Positions 13,010 to 63,187 of a DNA stretch of 64,000 nucleotides are shown here, one piece after another (positions within the stretch are counted from its first letter, which is position 1; the number at the start of each line of letters is the position of its first letter). The DNA is taken from contig NZ_QFZQ01000003.1 in the NCBI RefSeq assembly GCF_003171675.1, forward strand, positions 248,001 through 312,000, written 5' to 3'. This DNA comes from Reichenbachiella versicolor (GTDB taxonomy: Bacteria; Bacteroidota; Bacteroidia; Cytophagales; Cyclobacteriaceae). The position numbers were made by a program, and so were the translations under genes. The notes under the pieces are model-generated. The model had not been told where the DNA came from, searched no databases, and saw only the letters and a program-made list of their open reading frames with translations.

Positions 13010-13813
13010 TTTTATTTGTTTTAAATGTTTCTAATTAATTTTCTTTTATCTAAAGATGATTCAGTTTCTTGTCTTAGGATAGAGTGCTGATAGTTAGATG
13101 AATACTTCAGTTCTATAGTACTTTGATGAGTTATTTTAATCTCACTTATAAGCTGTGAAGAATTGATTCTATTTGCTTAAATCGTATGAACTGTTTTTAT
13201 AGGTCAACTTCTGAGTGGGATTTAATAGCGCTTACTGTTTTGTGGTGTACACAGTTTGTCAATACACTATTGAGTTGTATGGTTTTCTCGACGAATGATT
13301 GGCAGAATCTAGGTTTTACCGCGAATAAAAGAGAAGAATAATAATGAAGGTTAGAAATAGATATCGCTTGCATAGTAGTTAGATGTTTTTAGATAAATGT
13401 CAGACCTGTATTAATAAAAGAATTAATCCAGAATATTCTTGGATACAAGATTACTTAAAATAGATGTGACGTTCAAAAAAAAATGCTAGCTAGGTGTCTA
13501 TAGCATAGCTTTATTTTCGATAAGAGATAATTCGATTAAGCTTTATTTTCAAATACATGGTTGCATAATATTATCTTCTAGTATACAGACAGATTAAAGG
13601 GGGATCTATAAAACCTTCCATAACCTCATCTCTTAGACGCATATTCAAGTATTAATCCGTTCTATTCTACTAATGGAATTAGGTATTCTAGGTTTAGTGA
13701 AGGTATTTAAGCTCAAACTCAATGTTTTTTAGAGTTTGAGGCACATTTTAGTGAAAATAGATCGTCTCTTAGTTACTGAAACACACCTAGACGATCCACC
13801 AGCTATTTATTCC
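13010..13813. other. Gene-free stretch upstream of the 21-bp array
   Basis: About 800 bp of AT-rich sequence with stops in every frame at short intervals. Nothing recognisable was found apart from a presumed promoter region for the lipoprotein gene starting at 13009 on the minus strand. Confidence 0.5.
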
Positions 13814-14000
13814 TGGAATAATTCATTCCCGACATGGAATAACTCATTCGTCAGGTGGTAGAATTCATTTTTTGATGGAATAACTCATTCATGAAGTGGT
13901 AGAACTAATTCCTGATATGGAATAATTCATTCTTAAGGTGGTAGAACTCGTTCCTATACTGGTAGAAATGATTTTTTAGTGGTAGAATTTATTCTTTGAC
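13814..14000. repeat. Array A: nine degenerate 20-21-bp tandem units
   Basis: Units start at 13814, 13835, 13856, 13876, 13897, 13918, 13939, 13960 and 13980. Seven are 21 bp and two are 20 bp. The consensus is TGGWAKAAYTCATTC followed by six variable bases. Each core has partial dyad symmetry (GAAT, five bases, ATTC). Reading frames are broken by stops (TGG TAG) and by the 20-bp units, so the repeat is not coding. It lies about 145 bp beyond the 3' end of the first TPR gene. Unit length equals two DNA helical turns, suggesting binding sites on one face of the helix, but no binding protein is known. Confidence 0.75.
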
Positions 14001-17349: not shown

Positions 17350-18640
17350 CCGTCATCACGAACAGAGTGAAGTGATCTGTTCATGTCATGCAGCAGTTCA
17401 GTGAACATACTGCCGTATTTCATCTCGGCTTTCTATTTAGCCTCCATTCGGATGATGCTGTTACCTGATCAGGAGCATGAATCAAAAGAAATGAGTAGTT
17501 CATTAGTTAGTGTGAGACCCCAGATAATTACCCGACCTATCGGTCTTAGTAATTTCTGGGATGACGAACACTTTCTCGAAATCAATAACACCGTCATCCC
17601 AAAAATCAATTTTGCGATAGCAGGAATTGGTTATTTGGGATCTCTAACTCAGGGTGAGGGTGTATGTTTTTTAACAAACTTCAATAATAACGCCGTCCAT
17701 TGCGAGGAGGCATGACGAAGCAATCTGTACGAGTGAGATGAGTTACTAAAGAACCGCAGCAGTCCAGTGGACAGGCTGCCGCATTCCGTCTCGATAGCTA
17801 TCGAGCTTCCATTCGCAGTGACGCTGTTTTTTTGTTTTTTTCTGGTTCAGTATGGTGGGATGACGAGCATTCTATCTAAATCAATAACACCGTCATCCCA
17901 AAAAACAATTTTGCGATAGCAGGAATTGGTTATTTGGGATCTCCAACTCAGGGTGCGGGTGTCTTGTTTTTTTCATAAACTTCAATAATAACGCCGTCCA
18001 TTGCGAGGAGGCATGACGAAGCAATCTGTACGAGTGAGATGAGTTACTAAAGAACCGCAGCAGTCCAGTGGACAGGCTGCCGCATTCCATCTCGATAGCT
18101 ATCGAGCTTCCATTCGCAGTGACGCTGTTTTTTTGTTTTTTTCTGGTTCAGTATTGTGGGATGACGAGCATCGTATCTAAATCAATAACACCGTCATCTC
18201 AAAAATCAATTTTGCGATAGCAGAAATTGGTTATTTGGGATCTCTAACTCAGGGTGCGGGTGTCTTGTTTTTTTCATAAACTTCAAATGATTCCGTCCAT
18301 TGCGAGGAGGCATGACGAAGCAATCTGTACGAGTGAGATGAGTTACTAAAGAACCGCAGCAGTCCAGTGAACAGACTGCCGCATTCCATCTCGGCTTTCT
18401 ATTTAGCCTCCGTTCGGAAGGCACCGTTACCTGTTCAGTAGCATGAATAAAAAGAAATGAGTAGTTCATTAGTTCGTGTGAGATCCCAGATAATTACCCG
18501 ACCTATCGGTCTTAGTAATTTCTGGGATGACGAGCACTTTCTCGAAATCAATAATACCGTCATCCCAAAAATCAATTTTGCGATAGCAGGAATTGGTTAT
18601 TTGGGATCTCTAACTCAGGGTGCGGGTGTCTTGTTTTTTC
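17350..18640. repeat. Block of about four composite tandem repeats, period about 300 bp
   Basis: Two modules alternate. Module X begins near CCGTCATCCC (17591, 17890, 18191, 18557) and runs through TTGCGATAGCAGGAATTGG to GGGTGTCTTG. Module Y begins TTGCGAGGAGGCATGACG (17700, 18001, 18300) and runs through CCGCAGCAGTCCAGTG to the CATCTCG region; a partial Y lies near 17390. Copies are nearly identical, with spacing of 299-301 bp and one longer interval of 366 bp. Both modules contain palindromic parts, such as GGGATGACG against CGTCATCCC. Open frames in the block are translations of the repeat and are not genes. Similar GCGAGGAGG...CGAAGCAATCT repeats are familiar as dispersed intergenic elements in Bacteroidota. 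Confidence 0.8.
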
Positions 18641-40809: not shown

Positions 40810-41313
40810 TTATACTCGAATTGTTAATTCTTTTGAATAGCAATTTTGGCTTTGGTTCATGATTCGATACACAATTGTTTTGTTTAAAAAACTGTATGTC
40901 TCACTAAGAGTGTTTATTCCGTCATAAGAGATGATCATTTTAAAATCACTGTTAATTGCCTTAATCTGATAAAAACCCGCCTTGCCTAGGGGGAATTTTA
41001 CTATTCCATTAACTGATTCTTTAGAGTCTAATAATTGACTTCCTTGATATAGCTCTAGACGCGTATCTATACTGGAACCAACCCCGTTGATAATTCTAAC
41101 TATCAGATCGAAAGGTATAGTAATAGCTAGGCCATAGTTTTTTGATTTGACAGAATCTATCTTAACTGAAAGTCCATAATTTATTGATCTAACAGAGTCT
41201 GTTTTAACTGAAAGTCCATAATTTCTAGACTTGACTGAGTCAACCCTTATTGATAAACCGTTATTCTTTGATTTAATAGAGGGTGTGGAAATGCTTAGTC
41301 CAAAGTATGGCAT
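40810..41313 (-). CDS. Cassette small protein B: 14-residue repeats plus beta domain, function unknown
   Basis: The product has 167 residues. Residues 4-59 contain four exact-length 14-residue repeats: FGLSISTPSIKSKN, NGLSIRVDSVKSRN, YGLSVKTDSVRSIN and YGLSVKIDSVKSKN. The regular alternation of GLS strand and DSVKS turn suggests a short beta-solenoid or stalk. The C-terminal domain (FDLIVRIINGVGSSIDTR to YSKELTIRV) is shared with the two paralogues. Its ATG overlaps the stop of the preceding beta-helix gene by one base (TAATG), indicating translational coupling and probably joint assembly. No signal peptide. Confidence 0.68.
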   Translation of the reverse strand: MPYFGLSISTPSIKSKNNGLSIRVDSVKSRNYGLSVKTDSVRSINYGLSVKIDSVKSKNYGLAITIPFDLIVRIINGVGSSIDTRLELYQGSQLLDSKESVNGIVKFPLGKAGFYQIKAINSDFKMIISYDGINTLSETYSFLNKTIVYRIMNQSQNCYSKELTIRV

Positions 41314-42922: not shown

Positions 42923-43453
42923 CTAAATATGTATTGCCAATTCTCCTGAGTATGTGTCCTGAGTGGGATCCTTGACTCGGTAAACTATTGTTTTGTTTAG
43001 ATAGGTATATGTCTCAGCAATGTTGTTTGCTCCATCATAGTGGATGCTCATTTTTATATCACTATCAGTAATTTTGATTTTATATTCTCCAGCTTCAGGA
43101 AGCGCAAAAGTCATTATTCCATTCTCAGTAAATTTGGAAAATAGCAATGCCTCTGCTTTGTAGATTTCTATTTGAGCAGGGTGTAATAAGCCATTTTCAT
43201 TTACTATGTTGACAAGTAGATTCGCTACAAATACTGTTGATAGTCCTGAAAAAGATTTGAGTACCGTATCCTCTTTTTTTCTTTCAAGTGAAATACCGGA
43301 AAAACCTTTGGTGACTACATGGGTATTGTTGATAACTGATAAGCTTGTAAAGCCTTTAGTTACTACTGAAGAATCATTGATCTTTGATACACCTGTTGAA
43401 TTTTTAATGACCTTGTTAGAGTCATTTATGTGCGATATGCCAGTCCAACCCAT
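42923..43453 (-). CDS. Cassette small protein A: 16-residue repeats plus beta domain, function unknown
   Basis: The product has 176 residues. Repeats here are 16-17 residues (TGISHINDSNKVIKNS, TGVSKINDSSVVTKGF, TSLSVINNTHVVTKGF, then SGISLERKKEDTVLKSF), unlike the 14-residue form in the paralogues, but they keep the same G-x-S-hydrophobic core. The C-terminal domain VNIVNENGLLHPAQIEIY to YSGELAIHI aligns with the others. It overlaps the upstream beta-helix gene by one base (TAATG). Different repeat length with the same overall plan suggests that repeat number and length vary by slippage. No signal peptide; role unknown. Confidence 0.67.
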   Translation of the reverse strand: MGWTGISHINDSNKVIKNSTGVSKINDSSVVTKGFTSLSVINNTHVVTKGFSGISLERKKEDTVLKSFSGLSTVFVANLLVNIVNENGLLHPAQIEIYKAEALLFSKFTENGIMTFALPEAGEYKIKITDSDIKMSIHYDGANNIAETYTYLNKTIVYRVKDPTQDTYSGELAIHI

Positions 43454-60874: not shown

Positions 60875-61516
60875 TTAGCTCTTCACGATATGACGTGCAG
60901 CTTCGTAGCCTATGTAGAAAGTTACATTTGATCTACGGAACCTCGACATTACCTTGTCCAATCTAGTCAAGGCTTTGTTACCTTCCTCAAATAGCTCTTC
61001 CAAGCTTTGGGTAGCGATTCTAGAAGCAATCTGATAGGCCCTAGGCATACCACGTTTTTCCTGAAAAGAATTGAAGTTAGTTTTTACATCCTCGATTTGC
61101 TCTACCGTCATTCCGTAATCCGCCATAGCGTCCACATTTTTCTCAAGTAGACCAATTACATTTTTGGTCTTAGTTTCGAATTCTTCATGTGACAATCTGA
61201 AATAGTCTGACTTAGAATTAGAAGCTTGGGCAAGTAACTCAGAGTCATTCATATCGTCTGCATAAGCCTCAAGTGAATCATCCAAAATATCCATTTTATC
61301 AGCTATGACTTGTTTTAGTTCCCTGATTGACCCTCCGATAGTTATTTGAGCAGAATCTTGATCCAACGCATTTTGCTTGATGCCCTCGATAACTTGATTC
61401 AAAGCCGTTTTGTATTTAGTAAGGATAGGGATAGCGTTCCAAATAGCGGCATTATGGTCTAGATACAGGTTTGTAGCCTCGAACATTTCAAGGCGGTTAA
61501 TTTGCGATTGTTGCAT
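60875..61516 (-). CDS. Predicted helical protein, function unknown
   Basis: The product has 213 residues and is almost all alpha-helical. Repeated charged heptads (LVHEEFETKTKNVIGLLEK-like segments, LEELFEEGNKALTRLDKVMS) suggest coiled coils or a helical bundle. No signal peptide or membrane helix is seen, so it is likely cytoplasmic. Homologues of this length are hypothetical proteins in Bacteroidota, to my knowledge without an assigned role. The start ATG at 61516 lies only about 60 bp from a long 21-bp repeat array, so its promoter region either includes or abuts the array. Confidence 0.6.
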   Translation of the reverse strand: MQQSQINRLEMFEATNLYLDHNAAIWNAIPILTKYKTALNQVIEGIKQNALDQDSAQITIGGSIRELKQVIADKMDILDDSLEAYADDMNDSELLAQASNSKSDYFRLSHEEFETKTKNVIGLLEKNVDAMADYGMTVEQIEDVKTNFNSFQEKRGMPRAYQIASRIATQSLEELFEEGNKALTRLDKVMSRFRRSNVTFYIGYEAARHIVKS

Positions 61517-61576
61517 ACTTTTTTAAAAATATTGATTTAATAATGGCTGAAATTTAAATATAACGGTTTAATAATC

Positions 61577-61849
61577 TATGCATAATGATGAAAATCATGT
61601 GCAGCGTCTAAAGATATCTATGCAGTGCCTCAAGGTATCTGTGCAGTCATTTGAGATGTCTGTGCAGAGCATTGGGCCGTGTGTGCAGACGTTTGAGATA
61701 GTTGTGCATAGTATTCGAAGGCCTATGCAGAGCGTTTGGAGCACTGTGCAGACTGTTAAGGTACCTATGCAATACTCAAAGCATGCTGTGCAATAGAATC
61801 AGGGAAGTTTGCAGAGACTCAAGGGCTATTTGCAAAACCTCCTTAAATA
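61577..61849. repeat. Array B: thirteen 21-bp degenerate tandem units in perfect register
   Basis: TRTGCA or TTTGCA cores start at 61577, 61598, 61619, 61640, 61661, 61682, 61703, 61724, 61745, 61766, 61787, 61808 and 61829, always 21 bp apart. The consensus is TGTGCAG followed by four variable bases and a TYNARG-like patch, the rest being free. An open frame of 72 codons runs through the first ten units, but the periodicity continues in phase for two more units past its stop, so the repeat is a DNA- or RNA-level feature. It lies upstream of the helical protein gene (minus strand) and upstream of the esterase gene. Confidence 0.85.
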
Positions 61850-62182
61850 AGTTGACAGGTTTAACACTAATACTAATATGAGTTTACAATGAACTCATTA
61901 ATCCTAATTGTACTTTACAGAGCTCTGCTTAGTCCTATGAAGAGTAGACAGGATTGGTTTTAGTCCTTCTTGGAGTTGTCTTTTTATTACTTAATCCTTC
62001 ATATAGTTGTCTATTTACTAGCCAATGGAAATGAAGTGACTTTCTAGAGAATTGCTTTTGCTTAACTATTTCTTAATTCAATGTATAAATAAAAGAGGTT
62101 TAGATCTTTTGGTAATTAGTTTAGAATTGCACCTTCATACTATAAGGAAATTGAATAGGGTTTTATCCTCATTGCACCATAC
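61850..62182. other. Gene-free stretch between array B and the esterase gene
   Basis: About 330 bp of AT-rich DNA. A short direct repeat, AGTTGTCT, occurs twice near 61975 and 62020. Otherwise nothing was seen; it should hold the esterase promoter. Confidence 0.4.
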
Positions 62183-63187
62183 ATGAAAACAGCTATTGTT
62201 TATTTTCAGATATACATTCTCTTGTTCTTTTTATTCTCATGTTCAAAAGGAGATGAGGAAACCATCGAGGAGATAACGGTTGAAGAAACCATAGACGAAG
62301 TAGAGACAGATGATGATGGAGAAACGATCGATGAGGAAGATTTCAACTACGAATTTACTAAGCAGCACTTCTTACACGATTTGACAGGAGCATCTTTTCC
62401 TTATAGTTTCTTTCAACCAAAAGGCGCCGATATTCTTTCTGATCAAAAATACCCTTTGATTATCGCTCTACATGGTACAGAGTATTACCTAAAATCCGAA
62501 GCTGAATTTCTCAATGATTCAAAGACGGGCTACATGGCACTGGCTTGGATAGAAAAAGAAAATCAAAAACAATATCCAGCCTACGTCGTCGCGCCCAATC
62601 TCAATAATGGACTATGGACCAAACACTTTGAATATAATGATGGTTGGGCAGGTGAGGAGTCTATTGATTTTATAGAAAAGCTTTTAACTACTCTATTGGC
62701 GGACTATCCTAACATAGATGAAAATAGAATCTACCTAACGGGTCATTCTATGGGAGGTGGGGCTACTTGGTATATCGCTACTCAGATGAAAGAAAGACTG
62801 GCGGCCATTGTGCCATTTGCACAGTCACTGTCTGTTAACAATTCTAGATTTCAAGAAGTGCTTTCCAATATTGACAATGACACCTTCAAAAATATCCCAA
62901 TATGGGAGTTTATTCATCAAGATGACAAAGTAGGAGGTGCAAAAACATCAAGAATGATGTTTAGTAGATTACAGAGTAAGGGATATAGTCCTGTTTATAC
63001 ACACTGGTATGATGATCAAGAGTTTAGCCTGACAGACGCAGCTATCGAAACAGCAATAGGTAATAATAAAAAGTACTTTTATTCAGAGTACGCATATGAT
63101 TGCGGTGACGATTGTCATTACGTCATGACCACAGCCCTCAAACAAGACTATCTTTTCAAATGGCTGTTTAGTCAGAGGAAGGGGTGA
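62183..63187 (+). CDS. Lipoprotein alpha/beta-hydrolase (esterase, feruloyl/PHB-depolymerase-like)
   Basis: The product has 334 residues. The lipoprotein signal ends LLFFLFSCSKG, followed by an acidic Glu/Asp/Thr-rich linker (about 22-57), as is common in surface lipoproteins. The alpha/beta-hydrolase fold starts near PLIIALHGTEYYL (oxyanion region HG). The nucleophile elbow is GHSMGGGAT, the acid is likely in WEFIHQDDKVG, and the His in CGDDCHYVMT. It resembles esterases of the CE1/PHB-depolymerase group that act on polysaccharide side chains. The substrate is not known. The gene is isolated, with a hairpin after it. Confidence 0.8.
   Translation: MKTAIVYFQIYILLFFLFSCSKGDEETIEEITVEETIDEVETDDDGETIDEEDFNYEFTKQHFLHDLTGASFPYSFFQPKGADILSDQKYPLIIALHGTEYYLKSEAEFLNDSKTGYMALAWIEKENQKQYPAYVVAPNLNNGLWTKHFEYNDGWAGEESIDFIEKLLTTLLADYPNIDENRIYLTGHSMGGGATWYIATQMKERLAAIVPFAQSLSVNNSRFQEVLSNIDNDTFKNIPIWEFIHQDDKVGGAKTSRMMFSRLQSKGYSPVYTHWYDDQEFSLTDAAIETAIGNNKKYFYSEYAYDCGDDCHYVMTTALKQDYLFKWLFSQRKG

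Follow-up and report, generated by a model that had tools for sequence, protein, structure and literature searches.

Plasmid iterons are helically phased direct repeats of about 20-22 bp that adjoin the gene for Rep, the protein that binds them. A similar layout is known from the ParMRC system, in which a direct-repeat array (parC) lies beside the gene or genes of a small DNA-binding protein (ParR); according to the parts of the source drawn on here, ParR of pSK41 binds 20-bp repeats and there are families in which only the cognate partner is recognised, a likeness to the pairing of proteins and array types described below (PMC9426499). Within the Bacteroidota, BrickBuilt (23-nt) and 464/PgRS (41-nt) of P. 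gingivalis are dispersed intergenic arrays of degenerate repeats, described as MITE-like with a leader and a tail, and the flanks of PgRS are themselves repetitive; no partner protein is mentioned in the portions of that paper used here, and the word 'helical' is absent from its main text (PMC4596501). Here we show that a phased array of Reichenbachiella versicolor and the adjoining gene of a 213-aa protein, which we call F1, are two parts of one module that recurs across the Bacteroidota. The module is apparently undescribed: in the open-access literature we found no description of such an array-protein pair, the nearest being BrickBuilt and 464/PgRS.

The features discussed here lie in one window, the whole stretch of 64,000 nucleotides that was analysed (Table 1). 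The units of the array beside the F1 gene start at 61577, 61598 and so on to 61829, every step being exactly 21 bp, and TNTGCA is present in 13/13 of them (11 TRTGCA, 2 TTTGCA). Identity at lag 21 is 137/252 = 0.544 against an expected 0.258 (z 10.4), and it is 0.524 at lag 42 and 0.505 at lag 63; lags 20 (0.221) and 22 (0.227) are both at background. Since none of 60 Markov-1 sequences, each of 64 kb, exceeded 0.433 over 252 positions at any lag from 10 to 63, the thirteen evenly spaced units without a single indel that the initial annotation reported are real and far above chance. Five of the 21 columns are conserved in at least 12 of 13 units, where 0.54 would be expected under uniform decay (P ~1e-4); Tandem Repeats Finder returns the array as fragments only, in two rows. 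CRISPR, which the initial annotation had also discounted, is excluded, as the units are contiguous, without unique spacers, and no cas gene was found among the six window proteins scanned.

Table 1. Coordinates of the described features within the window.
Feature	Position	Strand	Description
F1 gene	60875..61516	minus	Encodes an all-helical protein (213 aa) that belongs to no known family; array on the 5' side
Spacer upstream of the start codon	61517..61576	minus	AT-rich, 60 bp; presumed promoter/leader of the F1 gene
Phased array	61577..61849	.	13 units x 21 bp; core TNTGCA on the + strand (TGCANA in gene orientation)
End element	61842..62021	.	31-bp period (TTGACAGG...TTAATCCT), conserved, directly after the window array
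Second array of the window	13809..13997	.	Nine units of ~21 bp, core GGTAGAA/GGAATAA..TCATT; solo array

The initial annotation considered the array alone, but the array belongs with the adjacent gene. DNA 5' of nearly all full-length F1 homologs has a 21-bp period (homologs in 8 genomes), and across the Bacteroidota a 21-bp array lies no more than 600 nt 5' of the gene at 46 of the 62 testable F1 loci, and as close on the 3' side at 1/62. Among the controls, 0/207 tiles of the window and 8/1200 ordinary ORFs from five same-genus genomes passed the array test, in which the cut for lag-21 identity was 0.50 and 600 nt beside the gene were covered. The set held 63 loci, and L091, with too little upstream DNA, was dropped; matches from the phylum sample entered the test only where the locus sequence was retrieved. 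Kept outside the set were the short F1 matches L013, L023, L044, L045, L048 and L055 (L023 and L055 being one gene) and duplicates of the same genes (L057, L059, L061, L067, L035-L037, L049, L050, L054 and L056). Among the 16/62 loci below the cut, four have a lag-20 identity of 0.495-0.543 (L024, L042, L069, L078), three lie near the lag-21 cut (L017 and L019 at 0.486, L088 at 0.467), six are partial matches (L046, L047, L053, L080, L081, L082), and at L020 the array sits beyond an inserted gene; L041 and L075 are full-length loci without an array at the 0.50 cut.

At L020 (G014:C45:1837-4229) the one gene between the 21-bp array and the F1 gene is presumably dinD-like, and the DNA following the array is largely repeated ahead of the F1 gene. 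Another gene may here have been captured by array and leader.

The F1 protein of the window has no significant match in Pfam, NCBIfam or PHROG. Its predicted structure (pLDDT 82) has no structural match in PDB or BFVD at E<=0.001, a sequence search for solved relatives found none that was convincing, and no recognised nuclease or transposase domain was found in it. DUF6261, a helical family, was never matched, and the PADLOC defence families gave weak matches only (best E 0.0023). Taken whole, most F1 proteins are acidic (median pI 5.5), with an acidic body and a basic C-terminal part (median pI 5.0 and 9.3; n=49). In the window, the neighbours of the F1 gene encode a T9SS-sorted lectin-like protein and an alpha/beta hydrolase. 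At 11 F1 loci, that is ten loci and the window end, no neighbour besides the F1 gene was shared at E<=1e-6, in a comparison whose filter hid pairs with both ORFs of 207-219 aa, and we therefore rejected the idea that F1 migrates together with other genes. The distribution of F1 is patchy: with the own genome included each time, homologs occur in 8 genomes after a search of 39 relatives, in 15/148 genomes of the family and in at least 19 of the 395 genomes sampled from the phylum, the hosts including Reichenbachiella faecimaris, Splendidivirga corallicola and Aquimarina muelleri. Some distant members (L082-L085, L094, L095) are longer, in part about 300-420 aa, and have a C-terminal fibronectin-III-like part; L085 has a weak match to Pfam fn3 (E 0.0052) and weak matches to PHROG tail proteins, and several of these loci have nearly identical 21-bp units.

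How does this module compare with the systems named above? As in ParMRC, an array lies beside a gene, whose product would bind it, and ParR/parC establishes that cognate repeat arrays of such a kind exist. However, the module is no member of ParMRC, given that we saw no ParM-like neighbour: those in the window are of other kinds, and the 11 F1 loci share none. It also differs in being chromosomal, with many arrays and unit types per genome. ParR is a ribbon-helix-helix protein, a fold that F1, whose all-helical model matches no fold or family, may or may not have. From iterons the module is set apart by its dispersed solo arrays and by the lack of convincing Rep homology: the window protein has no Rep initiator match in Pfam or NCBIfam and no plasmid match, and single homologs match weakly to PHROG replication-initiation (E 0.028) and to RepC of RepABC (E 0.056). 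While BrickBuilt and PgRS, as described in the parts of the paper cited, have both a leader and a tail (PMC4596501), the arrays here generally have only one conserved side.

Phase is kept well beyond the window. In 44 F1 arrays (530 units), 472 of the 486 steps are 21 bp, seven are 22, six are 20 and one is 19; these are the arrays of at least six units from 61 loci with proteins of >=150 aa, a further six having fewer units and 11 none, and the step count is affected by array extension, which halts at larger breaks. Arrays at homologous loci, on which the reading of the initial annotation could have foundered, thus keep their phase. Units differ from their consensus at a mean of 5.5 of 21 positions, which amounts to about 2,900 differences against at most 14 register shifts, whereas a same-genus intergenic control (one region, six pairs) with 22 gap openings per 472 substitutions leads one to expect about 137 indels; this deficit is rough and overstated to some degree, because inherited differences of duplicated units are counted repeatedly and extension stops at breaks. 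There are further arrays with other cores in the own genome and in relatives, as the initial annotation had called for, and from locus to locus the unit sequence varies and the step stays near 21 bp (20-21; in some F3 loci 41-43). Among 23 intergenic degenerate arrays found in 2 Mb from five genomes (lags 10-45), the best period is 20-23 or 40-44 bp in 19, and 12, 14, 16 and 27 in the remaining four. The periods of 20-23 and 40-44 bp and the 31 bp of the end element are about two, four and three helical turns, and it is from 21 bp being about two turns that we infer the position of the cores on one face of the DNA. Within units we found no 10-11-bp sub-period, there being no excess at lags 10-11, and on this ground we rejected the idea of two half-sites per unit that match the two modules of F3 (see below).

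Several relatives have near-identical units or 42-bp higher-order repeats, so that arrays evidently start out as duplicates, whose later divergence is constrained. The initial annotation had set selection for phase against simple slippage; phase selection fits the indel deficit, but tandem duplication is evidently involved. The same repeats would be expected of a neutral minisatellite, built by slippage duplicates and eroded by mutation, an explanation that we regard as very improbable in view of the 20-21-bp step shared by unrelated unit sequences across the phylum, the indel deficit, the five near-invariant columns and the link to one protein superfamily. As to where arrays grow, CRISPR-like growth from the end element was rejected, since unit similarity shows no gradient (the proximal side is higher in 6/16, and the gene-proximal side in 19/42 F1 arrays).

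Twenty-one base pairs are also seven codons, and a 72-aa open frame (61578-61796) spans ten units of the window array; it ends ahead of the array's end, as had been claimed. Given that the 44 F1 arrays hold 64 open frames where 56.7 are expected after column shuffling, that 13/44 have none at all, and that arrays of 20, 22, 23 and 41 bp exist, we consider the chance of a coding heptad repeat to be negligible, and no longer conserved protein appears in the array frames. A coding counter-example to the intergenic arrays is provided by the minus-strand ORFs 40810-41313 and 42923-43453 of the window, whose internal 42- and 48-bp DNA repeats are 14- and 16-residue protein repeats.

A further explanation, modelled on type III toxin-antitoxin systems (ToxIN), is that transcription of the array yields a repetitive RNA, a leader or an antitoxin-like one, that acts on the protein. 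It would suit an array that lies 5' of the gene at 46/62 F1 loci and has a fixed orientation to it, and an antisense RNA that is slightly more folded than shuffles (mean z -0.76; 10/44 below -2). However, in type III systems a folded repeat RNA and a terminator precede the toxin gene, and neither was found here: the sense strand folds no more stably than its dinucleotide-shuffled versions (mean z -0.32; 5/44 below -2, which is ordinary), and in window 61400-62250 there is no terminator-like site and no Rfam match of note (best E 0.87). Given also that solo arrays exist without a gene and that RNA would not need a strict helical step, we hold this explanation to be improbable. The arrays are neither coding nor structured sense RNA, both readings having been rejected on the fold z and open-frame shuffles of the 44 arrays.

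Unit sequence tracks both protein relatedness and orientation to the gene. Over 946 array pairs, similarity is above 0.6 in 34 when the strands are the same with respect to the gene and in 0 when they are opposite, and array similarity grows with protein identity (Mantel r 0.39, p 0.0002), for part of which shared descent of the linked pair accounts. Solo arrays often match a protein-linked array of their own genome, as seen above a similarity of 0.57 for 14/21 in three genomes (G000 6/8, G014 7/9, G001 1/4); for 7/21 no matching partner was found (G000 2/8, G014 2/9, G001 3/4), and 3/21 match a protein-linked array of another genome above 0.57. This threshold is the 99.9% level of single null comparisons, and each solo array was compared with two or eight arrays. 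The test began with 19 arrays, to which L239 and L248 were added; left out were L027-L029, whose units are of 41 bp, and those sampled arrays with a period of 22, 23, 41 or 42. The second array of the window matches two others in unit type: that of the F3 gene at C18:507.9k (0.86) and, at C2:1,051.3k, a solo one (0.90). The solo array at C13:684k matches the window F1 array (0.88) and is weak as a test, because it was first found via its similarity to that array; L246 is likewise weak, as only about 1 kb of the same contig separates it from the array of L124, the F2 locus that it matches. One solo array, 5' of a gene that we take to be glyS-like, is present in just this one of eight genus genomes, and a conserved promoter-like sequence lies downstream of it.

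Array linkage was met independently for two more protein families, starting in both cases from arrays in genome samples. Five more intergenic arrays of 21-bp period were found in a spaced 400-kb sample of the own genome (L103, L110, L113 (two), L114), and that of L110 is 5' of a 227-aa protein, the first of F2. A 5' lag-21 array is present at 6/9 F2 loci; of the others, L118 has a 42-bp period, L117 falls short (0.488) and L119 has its array 3' of the gene. F3 was met in a sampled genome in which no F1 was found, where the gene of a 217-aa protein has an array 65 bp upstream. It is NCBIfam NF052641, 'PQLLE family protein', for which NCBIfam gives no function and whose name was found in no paper of the open-access literature searched. 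The PQLLE profile matches L128 above its cut-off of 80, at 251.5 bits (E 6e-75), and F2 at E 9e-10; it is weakly matched by 4/17 F1 members (best E 0.0056) and not by the window F1 protein, which thus stands outside this array-linked family. By hhalign, F3 is related to F2 at E 4.6e-8 and to F1 at E 2.4e-5; a direct relation of F1 to F2 is not supported (E 0.036). F3 is built of two similar halves (N vs C half, E 2e-18), a two-module build for which F1 (E 0.02) and F2 (E 0.0097) fall short of significance.

Arrays of 20/21 bp were present at 10/27 loci of a first F3 set (27 of 29 matches tested) and at 11/25 of a second, which consisted of the 25 retrieved loci, left out the short matches L288-L291 and shared some genes with the first. 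When periods of 40-42 and 61-63 bp were allowed, 17/25 loci of the second set had an array, and 1/25 had one downstream. In genomes rich in F3 copies, the predominant array period is 41-43 bp, with several arrays scoring close to the cut. F3 matches reach a maximum of at least 20 per genome, with copies broken by stops, and the copy numbers amount to a burst-like paralogous expansion. Such genomes are G111, G118, G153, G144, G091 and G019, with 10 to at least 20 matches each, some stop-broken.

The end element that follows the window array has 21 matches in 4/59 genomes. Among 22 inspected copies (these 21 and L031), 18 have a 21-, 41- or 42-bp array immediately to their left and four have none there (L236, L237, L240, L249); to the right of end elements the best lag is never 20-23 or 40-44 at >=0.5. 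Arrays that differ in unit type can have similar end elements beside them, as would also be expected of mobile DNA. In G014 one copy lies between the array and the F1 gene (L011/L241), and that of the window lies on the far side of its array, where TTGACA is followed by TAATAT 16 nt on, a kind of match no commoner than in shuffles. Three 41-bp arrays of the own genome (L027, L028 and L029, on C5, C16 and C2) have palindromic cores (e.g. CTGCAAGCTGCAG) and lie beside copies of this same end element. No left end is shared at E<=0.01 by the 16 usable of 17 end-element arrays, a comparison that did not cover the left end of L027; on the left of L027's array is a 33-nt sequence of which L031 has an identical copy, next to its truncated end element. 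With this one exception the left end is not generally shared, and a MITE with two ends was rejected. Beyond the end element, arrays of the same type have no common flank except matches of <=21 nt at E>0.01. In window 61400-62250 we saw one imperfect palindrome and no TIR pair, and precise empty sites were not found.

The main rival to a binding module is a selfish element, in which array and protein gene would form an autonomous copy, solo arrays, some with an end element, would be non-autonomous MITE-like copies, and phase would be needed for the protein or an undiscovered recombinase to assemble a transposition complex. We consider this unlikely, albeit well short of improbable, as it explains the patchiness of F1 (15/148 family and >=19/395 phylum genomes), the bursts of F3 (at least 20 copies per genome) and the broken F3 copies equally well. 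In addition, the solo array 5' of the presumably glyS-like gene is absent there in 7/7 genus relatives, the 31-bp-period end element adjoins arrays of several unit types (18/22 copies), and the 33-nt left sequence of L027 is repeated at L031. However, the 16 usable end-element arrays have no conserved second end, same-type arrays have no common flanks beyond the end element, the searches made of plasmid records, phage records and IMG/VR, for F1 only, found no homolog, the protein is helical without a recognised nuclease or transposase domain, and even arrays that are degenerate and seemingly old have retained the period. A selfish element and a binding module may also both be true at once.

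We propose that the array-protein pair is a binding module. Most likely, and with about an even chance in our judgement, every protein binds in phase to arrays of its own type, autoregulates its gene and gathers distant arrays. Each 21-bp unit, two helical turns long, would be a binding site for the helical protein encoded alongside. On helically phased sites, copies of the protein could stack on one face of the DNA, and the resulting cooperative nucleoprotein array beside the gene's own promoter would bring about autoregulation. The same protein might occupy solo arrays of its type and there regulate neighbouring genes or bridge distant loci, by analogy with the loading of ParR on parC repeats. 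As the unit type differs between the protein copies of a genome, these would not cross-react. Binding of this kind would explain phase without sequence constraint, the link to the gene, the several unit types per genome and the solo arrays. Counting against the binding module are that the F1 model shows no known DNA-binding fold, that most F1 proteins are acidic overall, that 16/62 F1 loci fall below the lag-21 cut and 7/21 solo arrays have no matching partner, that shared descent of a linked pair could make array and protein vary together, and that one F2 array (L119) lies 3' of its gene.

More tentatively, and with somewhat less than an even chance, we suggest that F1, F2 and F3/PQLLE belong to a phylum-wide, unnamed class of DNA-addressing systems, helical families that co-evolve with their own phased arrays of ~21-bp units, as orthogonal pairs that coexist in one chromosome with many dispersed cognate arrays and organise or regulate the chromosome. 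If arrays are addresses, the Bacteroidota would hold many orthogonal protein-DNA pairs where one sees hypothetical proteins and unannotated repeats today, and the fold of these proteins is one to which we found no relative. This would explain the degenerate minisatellites of 20-23 and 41-44 bp in Bacteroidota genomes, the function would be directly testable, and the pairs would supply a fresh set of orthogonal modules for DNA binding. Should they instead be selfish elements, they would represent a mobile kind without a recognisable recombinase.

Two other repeats were noted. The window holds a 301-bp tandem repeat at 17557-18393 (2.8 copies, 94% matches) that overlaps a 110-aa ORF in part. In G003, a 22-bp array with a CACGTGTGGT core (L193:12432-12541) lies about 320 bp 5' of a gene that we take to be HU-like and that adjoins a presumably amidase-like gene.
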